Below are positions 38,588 to 60,506 of a DNA stretch of 64,000 bases, in pieces. Position numbers and translations under genes: made by a program. This DNA is from Streptomyces sp. CGMCC 4.7035 (GTDB lineage Bacteria; Actinomycetota; Actinomycetes; Streptomycetales; Streptomycetaceae): NCBI RefSeq assembly GCF_031583065.1, contig NZ_CP134053.1:2604001-2668000 (forward strand), given 5' to 3'. Below the pieces are notes generated by a model. It had not been told where the DNA came from and did no database searches. It worked only from the letters and a program-made list of their open reading frames with translations. Each line of letters starts with the position of its first letter. Positions within the stretch are counted from its first letter, which is position 1.

Positions 38588-38675
38588 ACCGCTCGTGGCT
38601 CTGGACGCCTGAACCGCTCACGGGCCTGGATGTCTGAACCGCTCGTGGCCCTGGATGTCTGAACCGCTCGCTGTC
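38576..38675. repeat. 25-bp tandem repeat, four copies, overlapping the TetR gene end
   Basis: Copies start at 38576, 38601, 38626 and 38651 with the unit CTGGATGTCTGAACCGCTCG plus TGGCC, differing at one to four positions. The first copy encodes the final Leu-Asp-Val and stop of the TetR protein, so the array looks like an amplification of the gene's 3' end. Confidence 0.9.
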
Positions 38676-38736
38676 GGAATGTGTTTGTCCCGCCCGACCC
38701 GTTGACCTCCTCGTAACACGCCCTTACCTTTTCGGC

Positions 38737-38772
38737 GTTCGTAATTGCAGAATCTTGTTCGATATTGCGAAC
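38737..38772. promoter_or_regulatory. Candidate operator pair upstream of the GH43 operon
   Basis: GTTCGATATTGCGAAC (38757-38772) is an imperfect palindrome ending 39 bp before the first GH43 start. GTTCGTAATTGCAGAA (38737-38752) is a weaker copy placed exactly 20 bp earlier, on the same helix face. The stronger copy matches the perfect palindrome before the sugar-binding-protein gene (55888-55903) at 13 of 16 positions. Confidence 0.6.
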
Positions 38773-38811
38773 TCCTGAGTGTCTCGTATCCCCCCGCGAG
38801 AGGCAGTCCGC

Positions 38812-39888
38812 ATGAGCCGCGATGACGACCTGCCCGAAGTTCCCAGCCGCAGACGGATGCTGAAGGGCGCCCTGGCCGCGGGCGCCCTGGCGGCGGCCGC
38901 CCCTGGAATCGCCCACGCCGCCCCGAGCCGGAAGGCAGACCCGTACGTGAACCCGCTCGTCCGCAACCGGGCCGACCCCCACATTCACCGCCACACCGAC
39001 GGCCACTACTACTTCACGGCCACCGCCCCCGAGTACGACCGCATCATCCTGCGCCGCTCCCGCACCCTGGGCGGCCTGGCCACCGCCGCCGAGTCGGTCA
39101 TCTGGACCAAGCACGCGAGCGGCGTCATGGGCGCGCACATCTGGGCGCCGGAGATCCACCGCATCGGCGGCAAGTGGTACATCTACTTCGCCTCCGCGCC
39201 GGCAGAGAGTGTGTGGGACATCCGCATCTGGGTCCTGGAGAACGCCAACCCCGATCCCTTCAAGGGGAGATGGACCGAACGGGGCCAGATCAGGACCGCC
39301 TGGGAGACCTTCTCCCTCGACGCCACCACCTTCACCCACCGCGGCACCCGCTACCTCGCCTGGGCCCAGCACGAGCCCGGCATGGACAACAACACCGCGA
39401 TCTGGCTGTCGGAGATGGCGAACCCATGGACGCTGACGGGACCTCAGGTGCGCCTGTCCACACCTGAATACGACTGGGAGTGCGTCGGCTACAAGGTCAA
39501 CGAAGGGCCTTCGGTCATCGCCCGCAACGGCCGCCTTTTCATGTCGTACTCGGCCAGCGCCACCGACTGGCACTACTGCCTCGGCCTGCTGACCGTCGAC
39601 GCGGACGCCGACCTCATGGACCCCGCCAACTGGTCCAAGTCCCCGACCCCGGTCTTCACCAGCAACGACACCACGAAGCAGTACGGCCCCGGCCACAACT
39701 GCTTCACGGTCGCCGAGGACGGCCACACCGATGTCCTCGTCTACCACGCCCGTCAGTACAAGGAGATCACCGGCGACCCCCTGAACGACCCCAACCGTCA
39801 CACCCGCATCCAGAAGCTCGGCTGGAGACCGGACGGAACCCCGGACTTCGGCATCCCGGTCGCCGACACCGTGAAGGAGAGTGCGTGA
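38812..39888 (+). CDS. Secreted GH43 glycosidase (Tat signal)
   Basis: A 358-residue enzyme with a twin-arginine signal (SRRRMLKGALAAGALAAAA, cleavage near AHAA). The five-bladed propeller catalytic residues can be placed: Asp55 in NRADPHIH as general base, Asp170 in FSLDATTF as pKa modulator, Glu231 in KVNEGPSV as acid. GH43 enzymes of this type are mostly alpha-L-arabinofuranosidases or beta-xylosidases. ATG 38812 follows GAGAGGCAG. The next GH43 gene overlaps by four bases, so both enzymes are produced together; removal of arabinose from arabinogalactan side chains would fit the partner. Confidence 0.92.
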   Translation: MSRDDDLPEVPSRRRMLKGALAAGALAAAAPGIAHAAPSRKADPYVNPLVRNRADPHIHRHTDGHYYFTATAPEYDRIILRRSRTLGGLATAAESVIWTKHASGVMGAHIWAPEIHRIGGKWYIYFASAPAESVWDIRIWVLENANPDPFKGRWTERGQIRTAWETFSLDATTFTHRGTRYLAWAQHEPGMDNNTAIWLSEMANPWTLTGPQVRLSTPEYDWECVGYKVNEGPSVIARNGRLFMSYSASATDWHYCLGLLTVDADADLMDPANWSKSPTPVFTSNDTTKQYGPGHNCFTVAEDGHTDVLVYHARQYKEITGDPLNDPNRHTRIQKLGWRPDGTPDFGIPVADTVKESA

Positions 39889-41300
39889 CAATGAGACGCG
39901 CGTACGCGATCCTGCTGGCCCTCGGTCTGGCCCTGATCGGCGCCCTCGCCACCGCCGGTCCCGCCCAGGCCGCGCCCCAGACCATCACCAACGGCACGCA
40001 GTTCACGGACACGGCCGGCAACCTCGTGCAGGCGCACGGCGGCGGCGTCATCAAGGTCGGCGGCTACTACTACTGGTTCGGCGAGGACCGCAACGCCGAC
40101 AACACCTTCAAGTACGTGGACGCCTACCGCTCCACGGACCTGAAGAACTGGGAGTTCCGCAACCACGTTCTGACCCAGTCGAGCGCCACCGAGCTGGCCA
40201 CCGCCAACATCGAGCGGCCCAAGGTCATGTACAACGCCTCCACAGGCAAGTTCGTGATGTGGATGCACAAGGAGAACGGCTCCGACTACAGCGAGGCGCG
40301 CGCCGCCGTCGCCGTCTCGGACACGGTCGACGGGAACTACACCTACCAGGGCAGCTTCCGCCCGCTGGGCCAGTACATGTCCCGGGACATCACCGTCTTC
40401 GTCGACACCGACGGCACCGGCTACATGGCCTCGGCCGCCAACGAGAACTACGACCTGCACATCTACAAGCTCACCGCCGACTACACCGGCATCGACAGCC
40501 TGGCCGCCAACCCCTGGCCCGGCGGCCACCGCGAGGCCCCGGCCCTGTTCAAGCGGGGCGGCGTGTACTTCATGCTGACCTCGGCCGCGACCGGCTGGAA
40601 CCCCAACCAGCAGCAGTACGCCACCGCCACCAGCCTCGCCGGGCCCTGGACGTCCATGGCGAACATCGGCGACTCCACGGCGTACAACTCCCAGACGGCG
40701 TACGTCCTCCCGGTCCAGGGCACCTCGGGCACCTCGTACCTCTATCTGGGCGACCGCTGGGGCAACTCCTTCGGCGGGACGGTCAACGACTCGCGGTACG
40801 TGTGGCTGCCGCTGACCTTCCCGACCTCGACCTCGATGTCCATGTCCTGGTACCCGGAGATCACGATCGACACCGCCGCCGGGACGATCAGCGGCACGAG
40901 CGCCACGTACAACACCCTGATCGCCCGGCACAGCTCCAAGTGCGCCGACGTGCCGAGCCAGTCGATCCGGCAGGGCGTCGCGATCAGCCAGTACACCTGC
41001 AACGGCGGCGCCAACCAGAAGTGGTGGTTCAAGTCCGTCGGCAGCGGCTACTACGAGCTGATGGGCCGCGGCAGTTCGCTGTGTCTACAGGAGAACGCGA
41101 GCACCGTGACCCAGGAGAACTGCACCGGCGCCACCACCCAGCAGTGGTCGGTCGTGACGTCCGGCTCCTACGTGAACCTCAAGTCCCGGGCGAGCGGCGA
41201 GTGCCTGGACGTGTCCGGTGCGTCCACCGCCAACTCCGCCGCGATCATTACCTACACCTGCAACGGAGGCACCAACCAGCAGTGGACGCGCGGAACATGA
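39885..41300 (+). CDS. GH43 exo-beta-1,3-galactanase-like enzyme with CBM13
   Basis: A 471-residue secreted enzyme: signal peptide to about residue 30, a GH43 domain to about 340, and a C-terminal ricin-type CBM13 with three QxW-like repeats (NQKW, TQQW, NQQW). The N-terminal QAHGGGVIKVGGYYYWFGED is the landmark of subfamily 24 exo-beta-1,3-galactanases, which also carry a CBM13 in S. avermitilis. Glu217 (GGHREAPAL) is the likely acid, and the canonical base Asp is absent as in that subfamily. GTG 39885 overlaps the upstream stop (GTGA) with AAGGAG five bases before; ATG 39891 is an alternative. It would release galactose from the arabinogalactan backbone. Confidence 0.92.
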   Translation: MTMRRAYAILLALGLALIGALATAGPAQAAPQTITNGTQFTDTAGNLVQAHGGGVIKVGGYYYWFGEDRNADNTFKYVDAYRSTDLKNWEFRNHVLTQSSATELATANIERPKVMYNASTGKFVMWMHKENGSDYSEARAAVAVSDTVDGNYTYQGSFRPLGQYMSRDITVFVDTDGTGYMASAANENYDLHIYKLTADYTGIDSLAANPWPGGHREAPALFKRGGVYFMLTSAATGWNPNQQQYATATSLAGPWTSMANIGDSTAYNSQTAYVLPVQGTSGTSYLYLGDRWGNSFGGTVNDSRYVWLPLTFPTSTSMSMSWYPEITIDTAAGTISGTSATYNTLIARHSSKCADVPSQSIRQGVAISQYTCNGGANQKWWFKSVGSGYYELMGRGSSLCLQENASTVTQENCTGATTQQWSVVTSGSYVNLKSRASGECLDVSGASTANSAAIITYTCNGGTNQQWTRGT

Positions 41301-41312
41301 CCGGCGACCGGG

Positions 41313-41474
41313 TCAGGTCAGCAGATCGATCGCGTCGATCGACGTGCCCGCGCTGAGATAGCCCGTCGTCCCCGAGCCGCTCACCACGTTGATCTTCAGC
41401 ACGTTGTACTGGCTGGTGTCCGTGCGCCAGGCACTGGCCGGAACGCTATAGGTCACCTTCTCGGCCGTGAAGGA
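41313..41474 (-). pseudogene. C-terminal remnant of a rhamnogalacturonan lyase-like gene
   Basis: The minus-strand reading KVTYSVPASAWRTDTSQYNV followed by VVSGSGTTGYLSAGTSIDAI ends with a normal stop. It matches the final carbohydrate-binding-like beta-sandwich of PL4-type rhamnogalacturonan lyases (VPASAL...VVSGS..GYLS pattern). Nothing upstream in the frame belongs to the family: at about 41470 the sequence switches into an unrelated gene on the other strand. Only about 50 residues remain. The exact junction is approximate. Confidence 0.6.
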
Positions 41475-42057
41475 CTCCGGCTGGGGCCAGCAGCTGCCGC
41501 AGTACCTCCGCACGGGACTCGCCGTCGCCAACTACGCCGATTCCGGGGAGAGCACGGTCACCTATCTGGCCGACCCGCGGCTGTGGGCGACGGTTCAGCC
41601 GCTGATCCGCCCGCACGACCTGGTCCTCGTCCAACTAGCCCACAACGACAAGCACACCGACGAGGTGACGTACCGGACAAACCTGGAGACCCTGGTCGCG
41701 GGCGTCCGTGAGAAGGGTGGTGAACCGGTGCTTGTGACACCGATTGTCCGCCGTTGGTTCAATGCGGACGGTACGCTCGACAACAACACCGCGCTGCTGG
41801 TGAACGGTCTCGGCGTGGACCACCCGGCGGTGATCCGCTCGGTGGCTGCCGCCGAGCACGTCCCGTTGATCGACCTGACGGCCAAGACCAAGGCGCTCGT
41901 GGAGTCGCTGGGCGTCGAGGGCTCCAAGTCGATCTACCTCTACAACGAGAAGCGGGACAACACCCACACGTCCGTCCACGGCGCGACGGTGTACGCGGGT
42001 CTGGTGCGCGACGCACTCGTAGCGCAAGATCTGATACCGGAGGGTCGCTCACGTTAG
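41467..42057 (+). pseudogene. 5'-truncated rhamnogalacturonan acetylesterase-like SGNH hydrolase
   Basis: The frame encodes GWGQQLPQYLRTGLAVANYA, then VQLAHNDKHTDE (block III, Asn) and DNTHTSVHGA (block V, Asp-x2-His), the pattern of RGAE-type SGNH esterases that act on pectin. The family's signal peptide and block I GDST with the nucleophile Ser should precede GWGQ by about 30 residues but are missing. The frame starts abruptly at the junction with the oppositely oriented lyase remnant. Without the Ser block the product cannot be an active esterase. Confidence 0.75.
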
Positions 42058-42120
42058 CCGCGGGCCCCTCCGCAAGCGCGGGGAGAACGCGTCAGGCGTG
42101 CGCCCCCGCCCGCACAAGCC

Positions 42121-42156
42121 CCTGGGGCGTCCCGACCGGAACCGGGGCGCCCCAGG
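42121..42156. terminator. Hairpin between converging remnants
   Basis: CCTGGGGCG (42121-42129) pairs with CGCCCCAGG (42148-42156) over 9 bp with an 18-nt loop. It is followed by TTGT on the plus strand. It fits a terminator for the truncated esterase gene, or a bidirectional one. Confidence 0.55.
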
Positions 42157-42183
42157 TTGTGACTCAAGGCTACGACCGGGGCC

Positions 42184-42477
42184 TCACGGGGTGAGGCGGG
42201 CGATCTTCAGCGTCGTCGTGGTCGGGGACGAGCCGGTCAGGGCGGTCGCGTACGACGGGGTGACCGGGGCGTAGGCCCACGTCAGGGTGGAGTCCTTCAG
42301 CACGGCGATGTCACCGGTAATGCGGGCCTGGACCACCTTGTCCGCGCCCTGGAACTTGCCGTTCCAGTCGATCAGCCGCAGGTGCGTGCCCGTGAAGGTA
42401 CCCGTGCACGTGCCGCTCGCGCACTTCGCGTTCTTCAGGGACTCCCAGGAGACGAGCAGCTTCACACTTCGGTCCAC
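42184..42477 (-). CDS. Hypothetical protein, probably a 5'-truncated fragment
   Basis: A 97-residue frame with coding-like composition (WESLKNAKCASGTCTGTFTG, HLRLIDWNGKFQGADKV, TLKIARLTP) and two cysteines that could form a small disulfide loop. It begins at a GTG within an 11-bp direct repeat (CACACTTCGGT at 42463 and 42475) and lacks a signal peptide although the body looks secreted. I recognise no family. It may be the C-terminus of a larger extracellular protein lost by recombination at the repeat. Confidence 0.45.
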   Translation of the reverse strand: MDRSVKLLVSWESLKNAKCASGTCTGTFTGTHLRLIDWNGKFQGADKVVQARITGDIAVLKDSTLTWAYAPVTPSYATALTGSSPTTTTLKIARLTP

Positions 42478-42567
42478 ACTTCGGTGGGCACCGTCGGGCC
42501 CGCCCGGCCATTGGTCGCGAGGGGCGGTCAGGGGTTGCGGCGGGCGGCCATTGACGTTTTCGCCGGG

Positions 42568-43140
42568 TCAGTTCGCCCGGGGCCAGTGCTCCAGCAGCAC
42601 GTGCAACGCATCGATGGCGCGGTCCCAGGACGTCTCCACGTCGCGGGGGGCGCCGAAGCCGCCGGTTGCTTCGAGGGCGCAGTAGCCGTGGAACGTGCTG
42701 CGCAGCAGGCGTACGGCGTCGGTGAGGTCGGGTTCGTCGAGGCCGTAGGCGCGGAGCACGCCGTAGGTGATCTCGGCGGTGCGGCGGAAGGCGGGGGAGT
42801 CGACGACGAGGGACTGGTCGATACGGATCTGGGTGGCCGCGTACCGCCCCGGGTGCCGGTGCGCGTACTCCCGGTACGCGCCCGCGAAGGCGGCCAGCGC
42901 GTCCTTCCCGGCGCGGCCGGCGACCGCTGCCGCGATCAGGTCGATCATCTCGCCGCCGGCGAGCAGGGCCATACGGGTGCGCAGGTCCTGGAGGTTCCTG
43001 ACGTGCGAGTACAGGCTCGCGTCCTTCACCCCGAAGTGCCGCGCCAGCCCGGACAGCGTGACGTTGTCGAAACCGACCTCGTCCGCGAGGTCGGCGGCGG
43101 CCTCGACGAGCCGGGCGGCCGTCAGTCCGGCACGGGCCAT
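42568..43140 (-). CDS. TetR-family regulator with WHG-type C-terminus
   Basis: A 190-residue regulator. The HTH is LVEAAADLADEVGFDNVTLS then LARHFGVKDASLYSHVRNLQ. The C-terminal domain (AFAGAYREYAHRHPGRYAAT, TFHGYCALEATGGFG) matches the TetR_C WHG group. ATG 43140 has a palindrome about 28 bp upstream that may be its operator. The divergent neighbour is an AraC-type regulator, so the target may be elsewhere. Confidence 0.92.
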   Translation of the reverse strand: MARAGLTAARLVEAAADLADEVGFDNVTLSGLARHFGVKDASLYSHVRNLQDLRTRMALLAGGEMIDLIAAAVAGRAGKDALAAFAGAYREYAHRHPGRYAATQIRIDQSLVVDSPAFRRTAEITYGVLRAYGLDEPDLTDAVRLLRSTFHGYCALEATGGFGAPRDVETSWDRAIDALHVLLEHWPRAN

Positions 43141-43167
43141 GGGGCCACCTCTCTGGAGCTGGTCTCT

Positions 43168-43183
43168 CTAGGTTCGATCCTAG
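43168..43183. promoter_or_regulatory. Candidate TetR operator
   Basis: CTAGG (43168-43172) and CCTAG (43179-43183) flank TTCGAT, 28 bp upstream of the TetR start. It looks superficially like a tRNA T-arm but no acceptor or anticodon arms are present. Confidence 0.5.
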
Positions 43184-43344
43184 TGGGACCAGGACTCGTG
43201 GACGGTGGGACCGCAGATGCCGATGCGCCGAGCCGAGACCCGGATGAGGTGAGGGGAGACGCGATGGGCCACGGCTTCACCGCGGCCGGGCCGCGCGTAC
43301 AAGGTGGTCTGGGCGGAAGTGAAGGTTCCGGGGCGTGGTGGGCA

Positions 43345-43378
43345 GTCGGCTGGAACTCTGGTGAAGGTTCCAGCCGAC
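43345..43378. promoter_or_regulatory. Perfect 12-bp hairpin in a divergent promoter region
   Basis: GTCGGCTGGAAC (43345-43356) and GTTCCAGCCGAC (43367-43378) pair completely around a 10-nt loop. No U-tract follows on either strand. Since no gene ends nearby, it is either an operator-like palindrome or the terminator of a lost gene. Confidence 0.5.
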
Positions 43379-43526
43379 ATCGCTCCCCTTGCTTCAAGCT
43401 AGACGAGTGGGGGGCGGTCGAGTCTCCGGTTCGCGCCCGTGGTGTCTCCACTTCGCGCCACGCAACCGGGTAACCCTCCTTTGCACGTCCCACGCGGACG
43501 AGGCTCTGGGAGTCGGAGGTGGTGCC

Positions 43527-44489
43527 ATGGACGGCGGTGCGTTACACGTACACCGAGCGACCCTGGGGGAGTTACAGACCGCGGCCTCCTCGATCCTCGC
43601 GCCGCTCGCCGTGACCGCTCCCGCCACGGACACCTTCCGGGCCGACATCGACGCGGCGCTGGTGGGCCGGGCCGCCGTAGCGCGGATCCGTGGCGGTGGG
43701 CACGAAGTGGCGCGTACGGCGAAGGCCATCACCTCCACCGATCCCGAGCTGCTGAAGCTCACACTGCACCGCACGCCTGAGCCCGCCACCGCCGACCAGG
43801 GCGGCCACCAGTCCAGGGCGCACGTAGGCGACTTCGTGGTCTTCGACATGACCCGCCCGTACCGGCTCGCCGTCGCCGACGGCTGTGACGTCATGGCCGT
43901 CGGCATCCCCCGTACCGAACTCGGCCGCCACGCCGACACCGTGGCCCGTCAGGCCGCCCGGCGATTACCCGCCGACACGGGAGCGCAGGCGGTGCTGTCC
44001 GCGTTCCTGCTCGGCCTCGGCCGTCACCTGGACGAGCTGACCGGACCGGCCCAGGCGCACGTGGGCGACGCGCTGGTGTCACTGCTGCTCGCGGCGTTCA
44101 CGGAACACGCGCCCGCGCGCATGGACACGGCCACCGAACTCACCGACCGCATCCGCGTCTACGCCCTCGCCAACATCGCGGACCCGTCCCTGTCCGTGGA
44201 GTCGGTCGCGGTGGCGCACGGCATCTCCGCCCGCCAACTGCACCGCCTGTTCCAGCGCGACGGCGAGTCGTTCGCGGCTTGGCTGCGCCGCCAACGCCTC
44301 GAACGCATCCGCCGCGATCTGCTCGACCCCGCCCTCGACGGCCGTACGACCGCCGCCGTGGCCGCGCGTTGGGGGATCCACGACCCCCGCCACCTCGCCC
44401 GCGCCCTCAAGGCGCACTATGGACTGACGGCACGTGACCTGCGGCGCGGGCAGGCTGGACTGAACGATGACCCTGAGCTTTCGGGTTGA
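43527..44489 (+). CDS. AraC-family transcriptional regulator
   Basis: A 320-residue regulator with an N-terminal AraC-binding-like sensor domain (HVGDFVVFDMTRPYRLAVAD) and a C-terminal AraC HTH pair: LSVESVAVAHGISARQLHRL and TTAAVAARWGIHDPRHLARA, ending KAHYGLTARDLR. This matches activators of the NphR/TxtR-like group with AraC_binding_2 sensors. ATG 43527 follows CGGAGGTGG; a longer reading from 43389 has no better start. The MFS gene begins 133 bp downstream on the same strand and may be a target. Confidence 0.9.
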   Translation: MDGGALHVHRATLGELQTAASSILAPLAVTAPATDTFRADIDAALVGRAAVARIRGGGHEVARTAKAITSTDPELLKLTLHRTPEPATADQGGHQSRAHVGDFVVFDMTRPYRLAVADGCDVMAVGIPRTELGRHADTVARQAARRLPADTGAQAVLSAFLLGLGRHLDELTGPAQAHVGDALVSLLLAAFTEHAPARMDTATELTDRIRVYALANIADPSLSVESVAVAHGISARQLHRLFQRDGESFAAWLRRQRLERIRRDLLDPALDGRTTAAVAARWGIHDPRHLARALKAHYGLTARDLRRGQAGLNDDPELSG

Positions 44490-44600
44490 CGCCGTTGGAG
44501 AGTCCCGGGTACGCGGGCTTCGGCGCGTACTTCTCGTCGTACGGGAGGGCGGCGCCGTAGCCGCCGAAGGTGCCGCCGAGGGACGTAAGGTTGCCGGGGA
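44476..44600 (-). pseudogene. Possible GH10 xylanase C-terminal remnant
   Basis: The minus strand reads LTSLGGTFGGYGAALPYDEK then YAPKPAYPGLSNGV. The GYGAALPYDEKY-x-PKPAY pattern resembles the last strand and helix of GH10 endo-xylanases (usually GxGAALLWD..Y..KPAY). Only about 35 codons are recognisable and no family residues precede them, so it is a short relic at most. It overlaps the region before the MFS gene. The call rests on a short pattern. Confidence 0.3.
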
Positions 44601-44622
44601 CCGAGGCGCTTGGGGGAGCAGC

Positions 44623-45912
44623 TTGACGTACGAGGCACAGCGCGAGGACGAGTCGGACAACGGAGCACGGCGCGCCGCACCCGCCCCCGGTCGCCCTTCT
44701 CCGCGGCAGCGTGACTTCGGGATCTTCTGGGCCGCGCAGACCCTCTCGGTCCTCGGGGACTCCTTCGCCCTGATCGCACTGCCGCTGCTCGTGCTGGAGG
44801 CGACCGATTCCGTCGCGCGGATGGGGCTGCTCACGGCGGTCGGCGGTGCGGCGTCCGTGCTGGCCGGGGTCTTCGCCGGTGTGGTGGTGGACCGGGTGGA
44901 CCGCAGGAAGCTGCTCATCGTCTGCGACCTGGTGCGGATGGTGCTCTACGGGCTGATTCCGCTCCTGTGGCTCGCCGGGCCGCGCATCTGGCTGCTGTAC
45001 GCGGTGCTGCCGCTGTGCGAGGCCGTAGGGATGCTGTTCTCCGTCGCGTACGTCACCGTCGTGCGCGCACTGGTCGACGGGGAGCGGATCACCGCCGCCA
45101 ACGGCCGGCTGAACGCGACCGCCGCGGCGGCCGGAGTGGTCGGCCCGCTGTGCGCGGGCCTCGTGGCGGCCTGGACGGGTCCGGCCGCGGCCGTCGCCGT
45201 GGACGCGGCGAGCTTTGGCGTTTCGGCGGTCTGCCTGGGCTTCGTACGGATCGGGCAGGGCACGCCGGACGAACCGGCACCAGCCCGGCAGGGGCTGTGG
45301 CGGGACCTGCTCGTCGGCGTGTCCTTCCTGCGGAGCCACCCGGTGCTGCGCGTCCTCACCGTGCTGCTGTTTCTGTTCAGCTTCCTGGAACTGGGCCTGA
45401 CCGACCTGATCATCTACCACCTCAAGCACGACCTCGGGCAGAGCGACGGCACGGTCGGCACTGTTCTCGCGGTCGGCGCGCTCGGCTCGATCACCGGGGC
45501 CCTGCTGGTGGCCCGGGTGCGCCGCGCGCTCGGCTTCGGACCCACCTGGACCGGCGCGGTGGCCGTCTGCGGCTGCGCGCTGGGCGGCATCGGCCTGGCC
45601 CGCGACGTACCGTCCGTCGCCCTCCTGACCGCGGCGTTCCTGTGCTGCGTCAGCATCTCGGGTACGTGCTCCATGTCCCTGCGCCAGCAGGTGACACCCC
45701 AGCATCTGCTGGGGCGGGTCACCTCCGCGTTCTGGACCATCCACTTCTCGGCGGGCCCGGTCGGCGCCGCCCTGCTCACCTGGGCGGCCCAGCACCACGG
45801 CACGGCCCCGGTGGGCGCGGTGGCCGGCGCGTGCTGTGTGGGCATCGCGGGACTGGCGCTGTTCACACCGGTGCGCGGGCGCCGCCCGGAAGCGGCCACC
45901 GAAGCCGCCTGA
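44623..45912 (+). CDS. MFS transporter (enterobactin exporter-like)
   Basis: A 429-residue transporter with about 12 transmembrane helices. FGIFWAAQTLSVLGDSFALI is TM1 and the loop VVVDRVDRRKLLIVCDLVRM carries the MFS motif A pattern as in EntS/MefE-type exporters. The TTG at 44623 has GGGGGAG seven bases upstream and gives a short hydrophilic N-terminus; the open frame extends to 44467 but that part lacks support and overlaps the AraC gene end and a relic. Likely a drug or siderophore exporter; substrate unknown. Confidence 0.85.
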   Translation: MTYEAQREDESDNGARRAAPAPGRPSPRQRDFGIFWAAQTLSVLGDSFALIALPLLVLEATDSVARMGLLTAVGGAASVLAGVFAGVVVDRVDRRKLLIVCDLVRMVLYGLIPLLWLAGPRIWLLYAVLPLCEAVGMLFSVAYVTVVRALVDGERITAANGRLNATAAAAGVVGPLCAGLVAAWTGPAAAVAVDAASFGVSAVCLGFVRIGQGTPDEPAPARQGLWRDLLVGVSFLRSHPVLRVLTVLLFLFSFLELGLTDLIIYHLKHDLGQSDGTVGTVLAVGALGSITGALLVARVRRALGFGPTWTGAVAVCGCALGGIGLARDVPSVALLTAAFLCCVSISGTCSMSLRQQVTPQHLLGRVTSAFWTIHFSAGPVGAALLTWAAQHHGTAPVGAVAGACCVGIAGLALFTPVRGRRPEAATEAA

Positions 45913-45930
45913 GCAGCCCCTGCGCGCCCG

Positions 45931-46737
45931 TCACCCGTTCACCCCCGTGTAGTGCCCGAGGCTCCGGCGCCACAGCAGCCTCGCCCCCAGATACGCCAGC
46001 ACCCCGAGCAGCGGCGAGGCCGCGGCCAGCCAGTACGGGGCGCCGGTGTCATGGCCGTGCCCCGTCAGGACCGCCGCCGGGAAGTACGCGACGAACGCCA
46101 GCGGCAGACCGAACGTCAGGAAGCCGCCCACCGCCTTCGGCAGCACGTTCAGCGGGTAGCTGCCGAACGTGCCGAGCAGCTCCTCCAGCCAGCGGCCCCA
46201 GTAGTCCGCCGCCGGGAAGCGCAGCGACGCGCAGGCGACCACCGTGAACAGTGCCGCCTCCAGGAGCATGCCGCCGAGGACCGAGACGATCAGGTAGCTG
46301 ATCCGGCCCGTCGTCCAGTCCAGATGACTGCGGCCCAGCGCGCCAGCCATCAGGCCCGCCGCCACCGTGAGGTCACCGATCGCGTTGGTCGGGAAGTACT
46401 CCAGCTGGACCTGGCGGTAGACCGGGAGGGGGCGCAGGAGGTACGCGTCGATCCTGCCCTCCTGGATGTGCCGGCCCAGGCCGTGCACCCGGCCCAGGAA
46501 CAGCACGAACAGGCCGTGCGCCAGCATTCTCGTCGCCGGGATGAGCAGGACGTCCGAGCTGTCCCAGCCGCCCATCCCGGTGAACCTGGTCAGCAGCACC
46601 GTCGCGAACACGATCACCGACACCTGCCAGACCGCGCCGATCGCGATCATCATCAGGAACTCGGAGCGGTACTCCAACTGGGCCCGGAAGTTCAGGCGCG
46701 TGATCCGCCACATGACGCGCAGGGCGTTCAACGACAT
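45931..46737 (-). CDS. ABC-2 family permease (subunit 2)
   Basis: A 268-residue permease with six transmembrane helices (for example FLMMIAIGAVWQVSVIVFAT and YLIVSVLGGMLLEAALFTVV). The LGRVHGLGRHIQEGRIDAYL and RPLPVYRQVQLEYFPTNAIG segments are typical of the DUF990-type ABC-2 permeases that always come in pairs with a large ATPase. Its ATG lies one base after the stop of the partner permease. The pair probably forms a heterodimeric export channel; substrate unknown. Confidence 0.92.
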   Translation of the reverse strand: MSLNALRVMWRITRLNFRAQLEYRSEFLMMIAIGAVWQVSVIVFATVLLTRFTGMGGWDSSDVLLIPATRMLAHGLFVLFLGRVHGLGRHIQEGRIDAYLLRPLPVYRQVQLEYFPTNAIGDLTVAAGLMAGALGRSHLDWTTGRISYLIVSVLGGMLLEAALFTVVACASLRFPAADYWGRWLEELLGTFGSYPLNVLPKAVGGFLTFGLPLAFVAYFPAAVLTGHGHDTGAPYWLAAASPLLGVLAYLGARLLWRRSLGHYTGVNG

Positions 46738-46738
46738 C

Positions 46739-47542
46739 TCAGCCTCCCTGCGAGATCACACGCCGGGCGGCCCGCCGCCACAGCAACCGGGTGAACAAGG
46801 ACAGGGCCACCACCCACCCTGCCTGCACGGCGAGTTGGAAGCCCGCGTCCGACAACGGGATCCGGCCCACGTACAGCGACAGCGGCACGCTCAGCGTCGC
46901 CTGGAACGGCAGGAAGCCGCTCATCGTGACGAACCAGTGAGGGAAGAACCACAGAGGCGCGTAGACCCCGGACAAAAGGTTCTGCGCGAAGATCAGGATC
47001 AGCATGGCCGCCCCGTTGCGCAGCGTCCAGAAGCACAGCTGGTCGATGAGCAGCATCACATAGTGCAGGACCCACTGGCCGAGCAGCAGACTGAGCGCGA
47101 ATACCCCCGCCACCGCGGCCGACCTGGGAGGCTCCACCACGCCGGCCGCCAGACACACCGCGTACCCGGTCAGCGCCCAGATGAGGCCGTACAGCCGCTC
47201 GCCGAGCGCCCGCAGCGCGTAGTAGCGCCGGGGCGACAGCGGGCGCAGGTACCAGTAGACGATGGTGCCGTACTGCATGTGCTGCATGACGCTGTCCCGG
47301 CCCGCGTACTGGTCCAGCTCCCGCAGCCGGGAGGCCAGAACGGCGAGCACGGCGTACGTGACCGCCTGGTCGCGGTCGAGTCCGGCGGTCGTGCCGGTCG
47401 CCTCGTACAGGCCGCGCCACAGGGACGCCACCAGAACGACCTGTACGGTCAGCCGCAGCAGGGCGGCGGTCATCCGGGGAGGCGTGTGCAACTCTCCGAG
47501 CGGGGTGACACGGGCGACGCGCCAGGCGTGCAGAACGGCCAT
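46739..47542 (-). CDS. ABC-2 family permease (subunit 1)
   Basis: A 267-residue permease with about six transmembrane helices (including WVLHYVMLLIDQLCFWTLRN and AAMLILIFAQNLLSGVYAPL). The MQHMQYGTIVYWYLRPLSPR stretch corresponds to the coupling region of its partner. ATG 47542 is one base after the ATPase stop; an upstream reading to 47575 lies inside the ATPase gene. Together with the second permease and the ATPase it forms a complete exporter of the type that in Streptomyces is often annotated for drug or lipid export. Confidence 0.92.
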   Translation of the reverse strand: MAVLHAWRVARVTPLGELHTPPRMTAALLRLTVQVVLVASLWRGLYEATGTTAGLDRDQAVTYAVLAVLASRLRELDQYAGRDSVMQHMQYGTIVYWYLRPLSPRRYYALRALGERLYGLIWALTGYAVCLAAGVVEPPRSAAVAGVFALSLLLGQWVLHYVMLLIDQLCFWTLRNGAAMLILIFAQNLLSGVYAPLWFFPHWFVTMSGFLPFQATLSVPLSLYVGRIPLSDAGFQLAVQAGWVVALSLFTRLLWRRAARRVISQGG

Positions 47543-47543
47543 G

Positions 47544-49717: not shown

Positions 49718-49728
49718 GACCGTGGAAG

Positions 49729-52608
<2,880 letters not shown>

Positions 52609-53481
52609 TCAGCCCTTGATGCCCGTCTGCGCGATCCCCTGCACCAGCCAGCGCTGGAGGAAGAGGAACACCAACAGCAGGGGCAGGATGGAAATGGCGG
52701 TGGCCATGAAGATCAGGTGGTAGTTGACGGTCTGGTTGGTCATGTACGACGACAGGGCGACCTGGACGGTCCAGGCGCTGGGGTCCTGGCCGATGACCAG
52801 CGGCCACAGGAAGGAGTTCCAGCCGTTGATGAAGGTGATCGTGGCGATCGCCGCGAAGAAGTTCAGCGAGTTGGGCACCACGACACGCCAGTACGCGCCC
52901 CAGTAGCCGAGCCCGTCCACGCGCGCCGCCTCCTCCAGCTCCTTCGGGAACCCCAGGAAGTACTGCCGGAACAGGAAGCAGGTGAATCCGCTGAAGAGGC
53001 CCGGAATGATGAGACCCCGATAGCTGTCCACCCAGCCCAGAGACGAGACGAGGACGAAGCTGGGCACGAAGGTGACGGCCGTGGGGACCATCAGGGTCGC
53101 CAGGACCGCGTAGAAGACCTTGTTGGCGTGCTTGTACGGGATGCGGGCGAGGCCGTAGCCGGCGAGCGAGCACACCAGGAGGATGCCCGTGGTGTGCAGG
53201 ATCGCGACGATCACGGAGTTCCACAGGGCCTGGGCGAAGTCGACCGTGGTGTCGTCGAACAGCTCGGTGATGTTGCCCCACTGGATGTCCGTGGGGAACC
53301 ACTTCCAGCTCTCGCCCGTGATCTCCGGATCCGTCATCAGGGCGTTGCGGATGATCAGGTAGAAGGGGATGAGGAAGAGGAGGGCGGCGACGCCGGTCGC
53401 GAGGTAGAGCCCGGCGTTGCCGATGACGCCGCCGCGCTTGGGCTTGACCGGCTTCCTGACGTCGGGTGCGGTGGTGGTCAC
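52609..53481 (-). CDS. Sugar ABC transporter permease, MalG-like
   Basis: A 290-residue inner permease with six transmembrane helices. The EAA coupling loop is EEAARVDGLGYWGAYWRVVV near residue 190. The N-terminus starts at GTG 53481, overlapping the partner permease stop (GTGA). With the MalF-like partner and binding protein it makes a CUT1-type oligosaccharide importer. No ATPase gene is present in the operon; in Streptomyces the shared ATPase MsiK often serves such systems. Confidence 0.95.
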   Translation of the reverse strand: MTTTAPDVRKPVKPKRGGVIGNAGLYLATGVAALLFLIPFYLIIRNALMTDPEITGESWKWFPTDIQWGNITELFDDTTVDFAQALWNSVIVAILHTTGILLVCSLAGYGLARIPYKHANKVFYAVLATLMVPTAVTFVPSFVLVSSLGWVDSYRGLIIPGLFSGFTCFLFRQYFLGFPKELEEAARVDGLGYWGAYWRVVVPNSLNFFAAIATITFINGWNSFLWPLVIGQDPSAWTVQVALSSYMTNQTVNYHLIFMATAISILPLLLVFLFLQRWLVQGIAQTGIKG

Positions 53482-54443
53482 TTGGACTCGTCACCCCTTC
53501 CGAATCCCATGATCTTGCCCTGGAACAGGGTGACGACGCAGATGAGCATGGTCAGGACGACCGCGCCCGCGCTGCCCACGCCGTAGTTCTGGTTCTCGCC
53601 CAGGGCCATCTTGTACAGCTCGACCAGCGGCGGCTGGCCCCAGGTGGCCTTTTTGAGGAGGTTGAAGAACTCGTCGAAGGCCTGGTAGGCGGCGATCAGG
53701 AGAAGCAGGATCACCGCGGTGGAGGTGGCCCGCAGCTGCGGCAGCGTGATGTGCCGGAAGGTCTGCCAGCCCGGCTTGGCGCCGTCGATGGCGGCGGCCT
53801 CGTACAGCTCCCGCGGGATGTTCTGCAGCGCGGCCAGGAAAAGGATCATGTAGAACCCGGACTGGAGCCACAGGCGTACGGTCACGATGACCAGCCAGTA
53901 CCAGGGCGGGTCCGGGTTGGCCAGCCAGGCGATGTTGTCGACGCCGAACCAGCCGATGACCGTGTTGGCCAGACCGAAGCGGACGCCGTTGAAGATGGAC
54001 ATCTTCCAGATCAGCGCGGCCGCGACATAGCTGCACGCGGTCGGCAGGAAGAACACCGACCGGAAGAACGCGCGCATGAACCGCAGCCGGTTGACCAGCA
54101 GCGCCAGGCCCAGGGAGAGGCCCCAGGTGGCGGGCACGATGAACGCCGCGAACACCGTGAACGTCACCAGCGAGTGCAGGAAGTCGGCGTCGGTGAGGAT
54201 CTGCACGTAGTTGTCGAAGCCGACGAACTCGCTCGGCGAGACGGTGAAGCGGGCCTCGAAGAAGCTGAGGTAGATGCTCCAGCCGATCGGCACGAAGACG
54301 AAGATCACCAGCCCGATGAGGAACGGCCCGGTGAAGAGCCAGAAGTTGAGGGTGCTGCTCGCCCCGAGGCCCCGCCGCGGCCGGTCCTTGGAGACCTTGG
54401 CCGGGGCGGGCTGGGCGACCCCGCGTGCAGTGGTGGTCGACAT
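53478..54443 (-). CDS. Sugar ABC transporter permease, MalF-like
   Basis: A 321-residue permease with six or seven transmembrane helices and the EAA loop YEAAAIDGAKPGWQTFRHIT near residue 215. The N-terminus (about 30 residues) is hydrophilic and cytoplasmic. It begins at ATG 54443, 22 bp after the binding-protein stop, and overlaps the next permease by four bases. It forms the other half of the CUT1 importer channel. Confidence 0.95.
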   Translation of the reverse strand: MSTTTARGVAQPAPAKVSKDRPRRGLGASSTLNFWLFTGPFLIGLVIFVFVPIGWSIYLSFFEARFTVSPSEFVGFDNYVQILTDADFLHSLVTFTVFAAFIVPATWGLSLGLALLVNRLRFMRAFFRSVFFLPTACSYVAAALIWKMSIFNGVRFGLANTVIGWFGVDNIAWLANPDPPWYWLVIVTVRLWLQSGFYMILFLAALQNIPRELYEAAAIDGAKPGWQTFRHITLPQLRATSTAVILLLLIAAYQAFDEFFNLLKKATWGQPPLVELYKMALGENQNYGVGSAGAVVLTMLICVVTLFQGKIMGFGRGDESK

Positions 54444-54465
54444 GTCGTCAGTCCGTCCGCGCGGC

Positions 54466-55731
54466 CTATCCGAAGAGCTTCTTGAGCTCGGCGTTGACCT
54501 TCTTGTCGCACGCGTCGAGCGCGGCCTCCGGGTCGCCGTTCTTGCGGACGACGTTCGCCATCACGTCGTCCCAGGCGGCGATCATCGCCTGGGTCCAGCC
54601 GATGTTGTCGAAGTGGCCGTAGTCGGTGAACAGCTTGACGCCCTCGGCGGGCAGGCCCGTCTTGAGCTTGGTGGCGCTCGCGGCCAGCGAAGTGCGCGGC
54701 GGGATGTGGAAGCCGTAGGAGGTCGACCAGTCCTCCTGGTACTCCTTCTGGTCGATCCACAGCCACTTCACGAATTCCTTGGCCGCGTCGACGTTCTTGC
54801 CCTTGGCGTTGACGAACATCGACCAACCGCCGTTGTAGACCGAAGGCTTGCCCGCCGAGCCCACCTTCGGGAACGGGAAGATGCCGATGTCGTCGCCGAG
54901 CGCCTTCTGCATCACCGGCATGGCCCACATGCCGCACCACTGGATGGCGCACAGGCCCTGGGTGATGGCCGACGGGTCCCACCAGTCGGCGGGCGCGCCG
55001 AGCAGCAGGTTGCCGCTGGTGAAGACCTTGCGCAGCTGCTTGAGACCGTCGACGACGGCGTCCGTGTGATAGGCGATCTCGTTCTTCTCGTTGAGCGTGT
55101 CGGCGCCGGCCGCCCAGATCAGGGGGCGCTCCAGCGGGGTGAGGTCGTTACCGAGGAAGAGCCCCTTCACCTTGCTGGTGGTGAGCTTCTCCCCGGCCTC
55201 GATCAGCTCTTCGAGCGTGGTCGGAACCTTGACCTTCGCCTTCTCGAACAGCGAGGGCCGGTAGAAGAAGAACTGCGGGTCGTCGATCATCCGGACGCCG
55301 TATATCTTCCCGTCGACCGTGTGCGAGGCGATGTCGGCCTGGTTGAAGTCGTCCTTGACCGGGCTGATGATGTCGGTCAGGTCCGCCACCTGGCCGCTCT
55401 TGACGAGCTGGATCTGCGGGTGGAACTCGAAGAGGTCCGGCGCGTTGTCGGTCAGCAGGGCCGCGAACAGCTTCTGCTCGAAGTTGTCGCCAGTGATCCA
55501 CTGCGTGGTCACATTGGCCTTCGTGTAGGCCTTCGCGTACTTCTTGATGGCCTGCTCGGTGCCCGCCTCGCCGTACGCGTGGAAGTACTGGACGAGGTTC
55601 TTGCCCGAACCCGACCCGCCCCCACGGCCGTTGTTGCTGCCGCATGCGGCCAGGGTGCCGGCGGCGGCCATGCCCGCCGCGGCCCGGAAGAGTGACCGGC
55701 GGGACCAGTTGTTGCTGCTCATTGCCGACAT
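54466..55731 (-). CDS. Extracellular sugar-binding lipoprotein
   Basis: A 421-residue CUT1-type binding protein. The Tat-like RRSLFRAAAG leads to the lipobox LAAC with Cys30, followed by a Gly/Ser linker. The mature domain has the family features GDNFEQKLFAALLTDNAPDL, DPQFFFYRP and FVNAKGKNVDAAKEFVKWLW. ATG 55731 follows AAGGACG. It heads the operon binding protein, MalF, MalG, GH2. A perfect 16-bp palindrome lies 157 bp upstream and may be the operator for galactan-derived sugars. Likely ligand: a beta-galacto-oligosaccharide, by neighbourhood. Confidence 0.93.
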   Translation of the reverse strand: MSAMSSNNWSRRSLFRAAAGMAAAGTLAACGSNNGRGGGSGSGKNLVQYFHAYGEAGTEQAIKKYAKAYTKANVTTQWITGDNFEQKLFAALLTDNAPDLFEFHPQIQLVKSGQVADLTDIISPVKDDFNQADIASHTVDGKIYGVRMIDDPQFFFYRPSLFEKAKVKVPTTLEELIEAGEKLTTSKVKGLFLGNDLTPLERPLIWAAGADTLNEKNEIAYHTDAVVDGLKQLRKVFTSGNLLLGAPADWWDPSAITQGLCAIQWCGMWAMPVMQKALGDDIGIFPFPKVGSAGKPSVYNGGWSMFVNAKGKNVDAAKEFVKWLWIDQKEYQEDWSTSYGFHIPPRTSLAASATKLKTGLPAEGVKLFTDYGHFDNIGWTQAMIAAWDDVMANVVRKNGDPEAALDACDKKVNAELKKLFG

Positions 55732-55887
55732 GCTGACGTCCTTGTCTCGAATGCGGCTGCGGCTCTTACAGCTCAGCGCGAGGTGGCTCAAAGAGGTGGC
55801 TGAAATGGGCTTGCGGTGCGGGACGTTAACCTTCGGCTAAGGCTTCGGCAAGGGGTTGGACGAAGCCTGTTCGAAGCGTTGTGCCCG

Positions 55888-55903
55888 GTTCGGAATTCCG
55901 AAC
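55888..55903. promoter_or_regulatory. Perfect 16-bp palindrome upstream of the sugar importer operon
   Basis: GTTCGGAATTCCGAAC is fully self-complementary. It lies between the GH30 stop and the binding-protein start, 157 bp before the latter. A 13-of-16 match lies before the GH43 operon at 38757-38772, 17 kb away. Confidence 0.7.
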
Positions 55904-55971
55904 AAGGAGTGGGGCAAAGGGGGTGAGGGCCGCCGGGTCAGGGGTGCCGGCGGCCCTCGGTCCAGGGGTGG

Positions 55972-57819
55972 TTACTGCCGGAACCAGGCCTCGTTGGACC
56001 CGCCGTCGCAGCTGTAGAGGATCACCTTGCTGCCGTCGGCGGTCGCCTGACCGCTGACGTCCAGGCACTTCCCGGACGCCTCGTTGACGATCTGGCCGTT
56101 GGAGTTCAGCAGCCAGCGTTGCGTACCGTCACCGGTGGGGTCCGCGGCTGTCGTGAGCCCCGAACTCCCGGCGGTCAGAAACCCGTTGGCGCCCTTCAGG
56201 GTGCCTTTCGCGTCGTACGACCACGACTGCCCGTCCCCGCCCGTGCAGGTGCCGATCGCGGCACCGGAGACGTCCGCCGTAAGGCACTTGCCCGACTGCT
56301 TGCCCTGCCAGGCGCCTGTCACGGCCGAAGAGCCGCTGTGACCCTTCTGGGCGAGAACGTACGTCGTGATGGACCGGGCGGGGAGCGTCGTGGAGACGGC
56401 GCCGCCGCTGACGGACGGCTTGGCCACGCTTGCCCAGTTCTCGTCGGCCGACGTCCGCACGGCCTTGGTGGCCCGTACCGGCGCCTTGCTGTTGAAGTGC
56501 AGGTTCAGGGCCGTGTCGGAGGTGTTGTGGTTGTTCACCACGACCACCCACGTGCCGTCCCGGTCGTACGTCGACACCTCGACCCCGTCCGGCGCGCCGG
56601 TCACGTTGTGCGCGACCGAGCCCGGTTTCACGAACTTGCTGTACTGGCCGAGCGCGTAATAGCGCTTGGTGAAGTACAGGGTCTGGTTGCCGCTGGTGGC
56701 GTAGTCCGGGTCGTAGTAGATCAGGCCGTCGTTCCAGCCGGAGTCGTTCTTCGCGTAGGGGTCGGTGCCGATCATCTCCGACAGCGCCACCCACCACTGG
56801 AACGCCGAGTCGTGGGCGGTGGCGAAGTCCTTGTAGATGATCCGGGAGAGGTTGAGACCGCCGTCGATGGTCGGGTCGTACTCCTGTGCCCAGCCCGTCC
56901 CGCCCTTGCCGAAGCAGCAGATCTCGGTGGACCAGGACTCCTTGCCGGCCGCCTTCGACGTCTCGTAGATCTTCGCCCGCTGGTCGTCACCAGGATTGTT
57001 GTACGTGTGGTGGGCCAGTTTCGACACGTACCGGTCCGTGCCCGGCTGCGAGATCCACTGCGGCACCTCGGTGTTGAAGCTGACCGTGCTGCTGGACTCG
57101 TCCGCGATGATGCCGGTCCTCTGGTGCCGGGACCGCTGCTCGGCGCCCAGCGCCCGCACGATGTCGTCCCGCTGGTCGACCGGCACCAGCATGCCCTCCT
57201 GGCCGCAGCTGTCGAAGCTGTTGTTCGGCTCGTTGAAGGGGCTGATGTAGTCGAACTTCTGGCCAAGCCCGGCGAAGTGGTCGGTGACGTCGGCGACGTA
57301 CTTCGCGAAGTCCTCGGTGTTCTCCGCCTTCAGATAGCCGCCGCAGCTCCTGCCGTTGGTCTTCCACTCGGCGGGCGCGCTGTTGACGAAGGCGATGAGG
57401 TCCTGGACGCCGTACTTCGCCGCGTAGGCGAGGAACGTACGGCCGCCCTTGTCCTTGCTCCAGTCGTACGTCCCGTCGTCGTCTCGGAAGTCCTCGGGGG
57501 CGCGGGACGGCGTGGTGACCGCCGTGCCGCCGCCACCGATGTTGTAGCGGTACGAACTCAGATCCAGGCCCTGTGCGGAGAACAGCAGCTTCGCCACCCG
57601 GGCCTGGACGGCGGGGTCGAAGTTCTTGAGGTCATTGACCCACCAGGCACCGGAGGCGCCGATGTTGTCGATGGTCTGGGCGGCGTGCGGGGAGACTTCG
57701 GCGGCCGTGGGGGAGGCCGCGTCGGCGGGCGGAGCGGATATCAGGGCCCCCGTGACAGCGAGTGCGGCTGCGGCTGTCGCGAGGACGGAGCGGTGGGGGG
57801 ATCTGATCGTGCGCGTCAA
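55972..57819 (-). CDS. GH30 endo-beta-1,6-galactanase-like enzyme with CBM13
   Basis: A 615-residue secreted enzyme: signal peptide to about 35, GH30 TIM barrel plus side beta-domain to about 485, and a C-terminal ricin-type CBM13. The catalytic acid is Glu197 (SPFNEPNN) and the nucleophile Glu299 (WSTEICCF). The FNEPNNSFDSCGQEG stretch matches the endo-beta-1,6-galactanase branch that cuts arabinogalactan side chains. The frame begins at TTG 57819 with AAGGGA eight bases upstream; no ATG or GTG start fits the signal peptide better. It lies 19 bp after the ROK gene and is probably cotranscribed with it. Confidence 0.9.
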   Translation of the reverse strand: MTRTIRSPHRSVLATAAAALAVTGALISAPPADAASPTAAEVSPHAAQTIDNIGASGAWWVNDLKNFDPAVQARVAKLLFSAQGLDLSSYRYNIGGGGTAVTTPSRAPEDFRDDDGTYDWSKDKGGRTFLAYAAKYGVQDLIAFVNSAPAEWKTNGRSCGGYLKAENTEDFAKYVADVTDHFAGLGQKFDYISPFNEPNNSFDSCGQEGMLVPVDQRDDIVRALGAEQRSRHQRTGIIADESSSTVSFNTEVPQWISQPGTDRYVSKLAHHTYNNPGDDQRAKIYETSKAAGKESWSTEICCFGKGGTGWAQEYDPTIDGGLNLSRIIYKDFATAHDSAFQWWVALSEMIGTDPYAKNDSGWNDGLIYYDPDYATSGNQTLYFTKRYYALGQYSKFVKPGSVAHNVTGAPDGVEVSTYDRDGTWVVVVNNHNTSDTALNLHFNSKAPVRATKAVRTSADENWASVAKPSVSGGAVSTTLPARSITTYVLAQKGHSGSSAVTGAWQGKQSGKCLTADVSGAAIGTCTGGDGQSWSYDAKGTLKGANGFLTAGSSGLTTAADPTGDGTQRWLLNSNGQIVNEASGKCLDVSGQATADGSKVILYSCDGGSNEAWFRQ

Positions 57820-59178: not shown

Positions 59179-60506
<1,328 letters not shown>

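Follow-up and report, generated by a model that had tools for sequence, protein, structure and literature searches.

Tandem operators shared by two sugar-use operons of Streptomyces sp. CGMCC 4.7035 point to a probable IclR-family arabinose regulator

The window analysed here, a stretch of 64,000 nucleotides that spans bases 2,604,001-2,668,000 of the 8.09-Mb chromosome of Streptomyces sp. CGMCC 4.7035, carries two operons for the use of sugars, one made up of two genes of glycoside hydrolase (GH) family 43 and the other of a sugar importer with a GH2 gene, and a palindrome stands ahead of each. In this study, we examined how the palindromes are conserved, where else they occur and which regulator is best placed to bind them. 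We consider it probable, from the sites and the genes beside them, that a single arabinose regulator of the IclR family, whose gene lies 3.8 Mb away, links the two operons through tandem operators. The operons and their promoters consist of the following features.

38702..38730, + strand: predicted GH43-operon promoter, TTGACC - 17 bp - TACCTT, from the sequence and aligned orthologous promoters
38737..38752, no strand: operator box 1 of the GH43 tandem, GTTCGTAATTGCAGAA, starting 6 bp past the -10 element, with box and spacing kept in orthologues
38757..38772, no strand: operator box 2 of the GH43 tandem, GTTCGATATTGCGAAC, kept in orthologues as counted below
38812..39888, + strand: GH43 alpha-L-arabinofuranosidase-like enzyme (Pfam PF04616; top PDB match 3akf, an alpha-L-arabinofuranosidase, E 3.7e-142; start codon set by eye)
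39891..41300, + strand: GH43 exo-beta-1,3-galactanase-like enzyme with a ricin-B domain (Pfam; PDB 3vsf, E 1.4e-135, and 7bys, E 2.1e-61; start codon uncertain)
49729..52596, - strand: GH2 beta-galactosidase with LacZ-type domains (Pfam)
52609..53481, - strand: ATP-binding cassette (ABC) permease (Pfam BPD_transp_1)
53478..54443, - strand: ABC permease (Pfam BPD_transp_1)
54466..55731, - strand: CUT1-type solute-binding protein, SBP_bac_1 (Pfam; start codon set by eye)
55823..55851, - strand: predicted importer promoter, TTGCCG - 17 bp - TAACGT, from the sequence and aligned promoters
55869..55884, - strand: importer operator box 2, of which only the right half (GCACAACGCTTCGAAC) is conserved, 19 bp from box 1 and scoring -3.9 bits in the window
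55888..55903, no strand: importer operator box 1, the perfect palindrome GTTCGGAATTCCGAAC, about 80 bp ahead of the predicted start site

Two operons behind one palindrome

The perfect palindrome stands at 55888-55903, where the initial annotation had placed it, and the GH43-side copy at 38757-38772 matches it at 13 of 16 positions. That annotation had also described a weaker copy 20 bp earlier; the copy is present (11/16 positions), starting at 38737, exactly 20 bp ahead of the start of GTTCGATATTGCGAAC, and the observation extends to a rule of two boxes about 19 bp apart. Expected counts come from Markov models (orders 1-3) for which 466 kb of the same genome, made up of the window and stretches around motif sites, served as training sequence. 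The motif is far from random density, since the consensus GTTCGNNATNNCGAAC occurs 9 times in the genome against 0.3-0.6 copies expected; for the exact 16-mer GTTCGGAATTCCGAAC, 0.0004-0.0008 copies are expected genome-wide. The arms with any centre (GTTCG-N6-CGAAC) are not rare, with 28 seen against 15-31 expected, and because the arms alone sit at random density, the signal consists of the arms together with the central AT. According to our own gene caller, six of the nine perfect sites are intergenic, whereas intergenic DNA makes up a fraction of 0.114 of the window (binomial P = 1.4e-4), and without the two sites that nominated the motif the count is 4 of 7 (P = 4.5e-3). The shared palindrome is real and more than a product of chance.

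Eleven orthologous GH43 promoters could be aligned, and they keep the predicted elements, TTGACC in 11/11 and TACCTT in 10/11, with box 2 lying 19 or 20 bp beyond box 1. The gap between the -10 element and the first box is 6 bp in the window and 16 bp in L058, which has an insertion. A 25-bp unit, CCTGGACGTCTGAACCGCTCGTGGC, is repeated 3.8 times at 38575-38670, from the end of a TetR-type gene towards the GH43 promoter. In relatives, the importer promoters have a full box upstream and then a half-box at +19. The two GH43 enzymes fit arabinogalactan as first suggested: the nearest structure to 38812-39888 is arabinofuranosidase 3akf, and 39891-41300 is nearest to structures of the exo-beta-1,3-galactanase type, its PDB matches (3vsf, 7bys and 5flw among them) including some named galactan 1,3-beta-galactosidase or exo-beta-1,3-galactanase.

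Conserved sites and the candidate regulator

To score boxes, we built a matrix from 22 GH43/importer sites only and then ran it on other promoters. Its training sites are orthologous and hence related to one another, and the tests at the IclR, GH62, GH51 and GH27 genes concern other promoters. Among 60 other genomes, the importer protein has 13 close relatives (75-82% identity) and the first GH43 enzyme has 11 (80-87% identity). With the window copies included, a box of >15 bits lies ahead of 13 of 14 importer orthologues, the exception being L034, whose box is degenerate and scores 12.5 bits, and ahead of 11 of 12 GH43 orthologues, the exception being L066, where the gene stands directly behind another on a 3-kb contig. 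This conservation upstream of orthologous genes supports the view that the two operons share a conserved operator. The initial annotation had proposed a regulon of these two operons for arabinogalactan; the common operator stands, but it is confined neither to these operons nor to arabinogalactan.

When partner offsets of 10-45 bp were scored, with nucS and two relatives' sites lacking a sugar link set aside, the best partner lay at -19 or +19 at 10 sites of this genome, at 12 sites of relatives outside the matrix, and in the 13 importer and 11 GH43 promoters. The window GH43 copy, spaced at 20 bp, is the odd one out.

Elsewhere in this genome, the motif recurs beside genes for the release of arabinose, which is the commonest theme of the putative regulon. 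Besides the pair in the window, the perfect intergenic sites comprise one ahead of nucS and three that each lie upstream of a GH62 gene, one of these three between a GH10 and a GH62 gene. By a family search, the genome has exactly three GH62 genes, and all three have an upstream site. Sites with at most one mismatch number 51, of which 50 were placed (9 perfect and 41 one-mismatch). Ten of the one-mismatch sites are intergenic, and they precede a GH51 arabinofuranosidase gene, an IclR-family gene heading an IclR-lactonase pair, a GH27 gene and a second IclR gene, while another lies between an MR/MLE dehydratase/Zn-dehydrogenase pair and a ChvE-GguA-GguB importer with an aldose epimerase; site 6211402 precedes a gene without a Pfam match, and this annotation sets aside sites 16930, 1801826, 3882524 and 5655619, two of which partly overlap called genes. 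The GH27 enzyme matches PDB 3a21 (E = 0), which we take to be the beta-L-arabinopyranosidase of Streptomyces avermitilis. A separate search with the tandem pattern gave 13 matches at 11 places, against 1 for a reversed-pattern control; the places are the three GH62 sites, GH51, GH27, the ChvE locus, the second IclR gene and four inside genes, and the search returned neither the two window sites nor the first IclR gene.

Two further observations concern these loci. Around one GH62 gene, the cluster L089:672-11904 holds two alpha-L-fucosidase-type genes, a GH127 beta-L-arabinofuranosidase gene and an alpha-galactosidase-type gene, all with ricin-B domains. Directly after site 6426595 lies a gene for a 321-amino-acid protein (L157:6026-6991) without a Pfam, NCBIfam or PDB match; it has >1,800 homologues, whose displayed names are hypothetical or U32 peptidase.

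The first of the IclR genes is the candidate regulator.

6,447,426-6,448,175 (L158:7027-7776), - strand, outside the window and 3.8 Mb away: candidate IclR regulator, with PF09339 (HTH_IclR) and PF01614 (IclR_C) above cut-off

The gene adjoins a SMP-30-type lactonase gene and the GH51 arabinofuranosidase gene, and tandem boxes 19 bp apart stand ahead of it in 27 of 27 orthologues (at least 76% identity; 61 genomes; three IclR matches of 37-47% identity left aside). The same holds for 80 of 80 loci in a scan of named genomes, which kept the best 80 of 414 IclR relatives, 79 of them labelled Streptomyces and one 'Actinobacteria bacterium'. The 973,056 bases around these loci contain 140 tandem sites of >20 bits, all spaced at 19 bp and all intergenic, 80 before the IclR gene and 60 elsewhere, and over the same bases a mirrored matrix and five other spacings each gave 0. 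Ten neighbouring genes, covering 8 of the 60 sites away from the IclR gene, were typed: six encode importer binding proteins, one is GH51, one DUF6545, and two (TerD and one of no family) lie beyond the IclR promoter. The lactonase gene is beside the IclR gene in 80/80 loci, and a strong GH51 match falls within the fetched flank in 27/80. In G004, the IclR gene is divergent from genes of the same dehydratase and dehydrogenase types, with the boxes between. All 14 congeners with the importer or this GH43 enzyme have the IclR gene.

Four IclR-bearing relatives (G013, G022, G009 and G032) provided an out-of-sample set of 21 of their 27 perfect sites, the other six being three used in the matrix and three others. 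Seven of the 21 lie in genes and 14 are intergenic, and 12 of the 14 adjoin GH43, GH62, GH10/GH62, AbfB-domain, GH27 or sugar-importer genes (L257 by layout alone). By comparison, six genomes of other genera of the order have no IclR match at E 1e-40. There, 20 of 25 perfect sites were examined (G038 4/4, G039 4/4, G042 5/5, G050 5/5, G045 1/3, G040 1/4), of which 14 lie within genes and 6 are intergenic, and no partner box among them scores above zero.

Contrary observations and other explanations

Several observations weigh against a single arabinose regulator acting at all of these sites. Three of the nine perfect sites are inside genes (a YccF gene, an untyped gene and the gene at window position 728), as are 31 of the 41 one-mismatch sites. 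Although the first GH62 site is about 130 bp from its gene, the other two are about 0.6 and 0.85 kb away. A perfect site in the nucS promoter region (L088:5992, genome 1649991), beside a 'NucS shadow' open reading frame, has no sugar link, and the two intergenic sites of the relatives that were not accounted for above are an AMP-binding/molybdopterin pair in G022, again with no sugar link, and a nucS-like layout, untyped. The partner box is often weak, scoring >0 bits at 8 of 10 sites of this genome and 7 of 12 of the relatives' sites, and <0 bits at the window importer, the ChvE locus, L243, L244, L252, L257 and L259. The tandem is present at three of six GH43 paralogues (59-65% identity) and missing at the other three, even in IclR-bearing genomes. 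Distant importer and GH43 relatives (L040-L045 and L068-L078, 17 loci) have no sites, with or without the IclR gene. Conservation of the operators at the two operons is thus restricted to one part of the genus, whereas the site ahead of the IclR gene is more widespread. The mean number of perfect sites per genome is 5.9 in the 14 congeners with the importer or GH43 enzyme, 1.7 in 12 other IclR-bearing congeners and 1.4 in 10 without the IclR gene. Site counts thus do not track the IclR gene beyond genomes with these operons, so relatedness confounds a test of co-occurrence, and we dropped the per-genome count as uninformative. Finally, Streptomyces has many IclR paralogues, one of which uses a related box.

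Two of the stray sites have counterparts in relatives. The perfect palindrome at 728-743, GTTCGTGATCACGAAC, lies within a coding gene, and the same 16-mer occurs in relatives, inside genes at 4/4 places checked. The nucS-like layout, of the same size as that of the nucS site, belongs to a perfect site of G022 (L254:4028).

The last of the contrary points leads to the rival that survives best, in which the window sites are bound by a different IclR paralogue, for example that at 5,789,635 next to an aldehyde dehydrogenase gene, or by a GylR-like protein. We regard this as unlikely. The paralogue is 31% identical to the candidate and occurs in 30/36 congeners at 80% identity or more, with a conserved tandem box before it (L153:6558-6592, first half like GTTCGRTATNCTGAAC); its gene is divergent from the aldehyde dehydrogenase gene. 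One published GylR site, GGTCGGCATTGTCGAACA (PMC9732521), resembles the palindrome. However, the paralogue's box ends in CTGAAC in 30 of 30 orthologues scanned, an ending that 0 of the 22 GH43/importer sites has, and its typed neighbours (aldehyde dehydrogenase, acetyltransferase and penicillin-binding protein) have no arabinose link. As a possible binder, the paralogue competes with the candidate regulator but has less in its favour.

If, as originally proposed, the regulon comprised the two operons alone and served arabinogalactan only, the gene content of both would suit it, but the same sites stand upstream of GH62, GH10/GH62, GH51 and GH27 genes, other importers and the IclR gene, here and in other genomes, which makes this version quite improbable.

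The ROK-family gene next to the importer operon offers a further alternative, and its surroundings include a second conserved dyad.

55843..55865, - strand: 23-bp dyad CTTCGTCCAACCCCTTGCCGAAG, candidate ROK operator, overlapping the -35 element of the importer promoter
55972..57819, - strand: GH30 enzyme with a ricin-B domain (Pfam Glyco_hydr_30_2; weak PDB matches), about 20 bp after the ROK gene
57839..59107, - strand: ROK-family regulator (Pfam ROK and HTH_24), probably not the palindrome binder
59179..59201, - strand: dyad CTTTCCTAATCCCTTGTAGAAAG ahead of the ROK gene, candidate ROK operator, with full arms in 11/14 orthologues, partial arms in 2 and none in 1

Were this ROK protein to bind the palindromes, it would run a local two-operon galactan regulon. 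Its gene is adjacent, and an orthologue of at least 85% identity is present in 13/13 importer-bearing relatives. Against this, the palindrome precedes 0 of 14 ROK orthologues and neither the cut copy L145 nor the more distant L146 and L147; G006 keeps the GH43 gene with both boxes and the IclR gene, but has no ROK orthologue (best match 36%) and no importer orthologue; and G016 has the ROK gene with an adjacent GH2-size gene, but no importer orthologue and no palindrome (at most 1 mismatch) in 16 kb. Moreover, the other conserved dyad fits a ROK protein better, and the known ROK sites described in PMC4856308 look different from the palindrome. We consider this alternative highly improbable and have dropped ROK as the palindrome binder, for want of a box before its own gene and in view of the GH43 operator without ROK in G006.

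The ROK protein may nevertheless have a local role. The importer dyad has the arms CTTCG/CGAAG and is identical in 14/14 importer promoters, and the dyad of the ROK gene has CTTTC/GAAAG around a similar core, such that the arms differ between the two dyads yet stay complementary within each. Because a dyad overlapping the -35 element also stands before the ROK gene, the local ROK protein may control the importer too. Since both dyads overlap the -35 region, a promoter feature common to the importer and ROK genes could likewise explain them. The second dyad is missing ahead of the more distant ROK genes L146 and L147. A genome-wide search with up to 3 mismatches returned the importer and ROK sites (2 mismatches each) and one weaker place; as a reversed-pattern control also gave 3, this count proves nothing. 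Just upstream of the ROK gene, at 59193-60443, lies a gene for a flavin adenine dinucleotide (FAD) enzyme of the aldonolactone/alditol oxidase type (FAD_binding_4 and ALO), possibly part of the same sugar locus.

On one point the layout differs from the initial annotation: the GH30 gene stands between the palindrome and the ROK gene and so is not a downstream member of the importer operon that the palindrome leads, but belongs with the ROK gene. The top PDB matches of the GH30 enzyme, 3clw and 7n6h, reach only E ~1e-22, with no close solved relative, and among 120 listed homologues no displayed (shortened) name says galactanase, while two say arabinofuranosidase. The proposal of one arabinogalactan pathway accordingly keeps its relatives of exo-beta-1,3-galactanase and arabinofuranosidase, but the beta-1,6-galactanase role of GH30 is not confirmed.

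The last alternative, that the similarity is due to chance or that a promoter feature is conserved with no regulator acting on it, is scarcely credible: the random density of the arms without the AT centre and the perfect sites within genes speak for it, but the 140 tandem sites, all intergenic and at a single spacing with no control matches, speak against chance, and the position of the box relative to the promoter varies between operons, unlike that of a core promoter element.

Proposed mechanism and comparison with known systems

If the IclR-family regulator binds the tandem operators, two dimers, or a tetramer, would occupy two boxes of consensus GTTCGNNATNNCGAAC, set 19-20 bp apart on the same side of the DNA helix. 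The regulon would comprise the IclR gene itself, the arabinose-freeing enzymes (GH43, GH62, GH51 and GH27) and the window importer/GH2 operon, and probably also the sugar-acid/ChvE-GguAB importer locus. We infer repression at the GH43 operon, where the boxes begin near the predicted transcription start, and activation or a long-range effect at the importer, where their positions would be about -80 and -61. L-Arabinose, or a product of its oxidation, is the probable inducer; an arabinose or sugar-acid ligand is suggested by the lactonase, dehydratase and dehydrogenase genes at the sites and by the KdgR-type relatives of the candidate, none of which reaches the curated cut-off. We speculate further that the IclR protein, which is conserved in much of the genus, responds to a compound that arises by oxidation of both L-arabinose and the stereochemically related D-galactose through the dehydrogenase, lactonase and MR/MLE dehydratase encoded at the sites, and so reads both sugars of arabinogalactan as one signal; with the local ROK protein it would form an AND gate at the importer, such that uptake needs both polymer and galactoside signals. 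This extension is doubtful and is offered as a tentative idea.

Streptomyces play a major part in degrading plant cell walls in soil, and among their switches those for xylan and cellulose are better known. The sites and their neighbours are most likely the mark of a wider conserved Streptomyces switch, in which one regulator would serve many arabinose-polysaccharide enzymes and importers. Such a switch would explain the joint switching-on of arabinoxylan, arabinan and arabinogalactan enzymes, and the proposal is testable, since it names a candidate regulator, defines the tandem operator exactly and lists targets.

Neither the type of motif nor the tandem spacing is new for the IclR family. 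Suvorova and Gelfand (2021, PMC8222616) described 94 orthologous groups with the consensus GKTYCRYW3-4RYGRAMC and tandem sites 18-22 nucleotides apart. Compared by eye, GTTCGNNATNNCGAAC fits the published group-1 operator shape, and the spacings found here, 19 in 140/140 sites and 20 at the window GH43 operon, fall within the published range. Unlike the regulons covered there, the one proposed here concerns arabinose, as the main text of that study contains no arabinose, arabinan or galactan regulon, although its supplementary tables may list one. Our literature search, which reached few subscription papers and not the supplement of PMC8222616, found no IclR-family arabinose or arabinogalactan regulator in Streptomyces.

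Within the family, the best NCBIfam matches of the candidate are BhcR (165.5, cut-off 350) and KdgR (162.8, cut-off 275), and KdgR is also among its PDB matches; because the scores are far under the curated cut-offs, the candidate is neither KdgR nor BhcR. GylR of Streptomyces clavuligerus is, according to PMC9732521, likewise an IclR-family carbon regulator that has a palindromic operator and also binds its own promoter, but it controls glycerol genes, and its minimal site is the one given above. For the putative ROK operator, RokB and CsnR (PMC4856308) are the nearest comparison: their site TTTGTTC-N11-GAACAAA, T-rich on the left and A-rich on the right, resembles the CTTTC-N13-GAAAG dyad, whereas their targets are different, and the dyad here is a candidate ROK site only. 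PMC12772271 calls the IclR-like SACTE_5479 homologous to an allantoin regulator, and describes the xylan regulon of BxlR, in which Streptomyces hemicellulose enzymes are also controlled via a shared palindrome. BxlR, however, belongs to the LacI family, responds to another sugar and has a different motif, CGAANNTTTCG.

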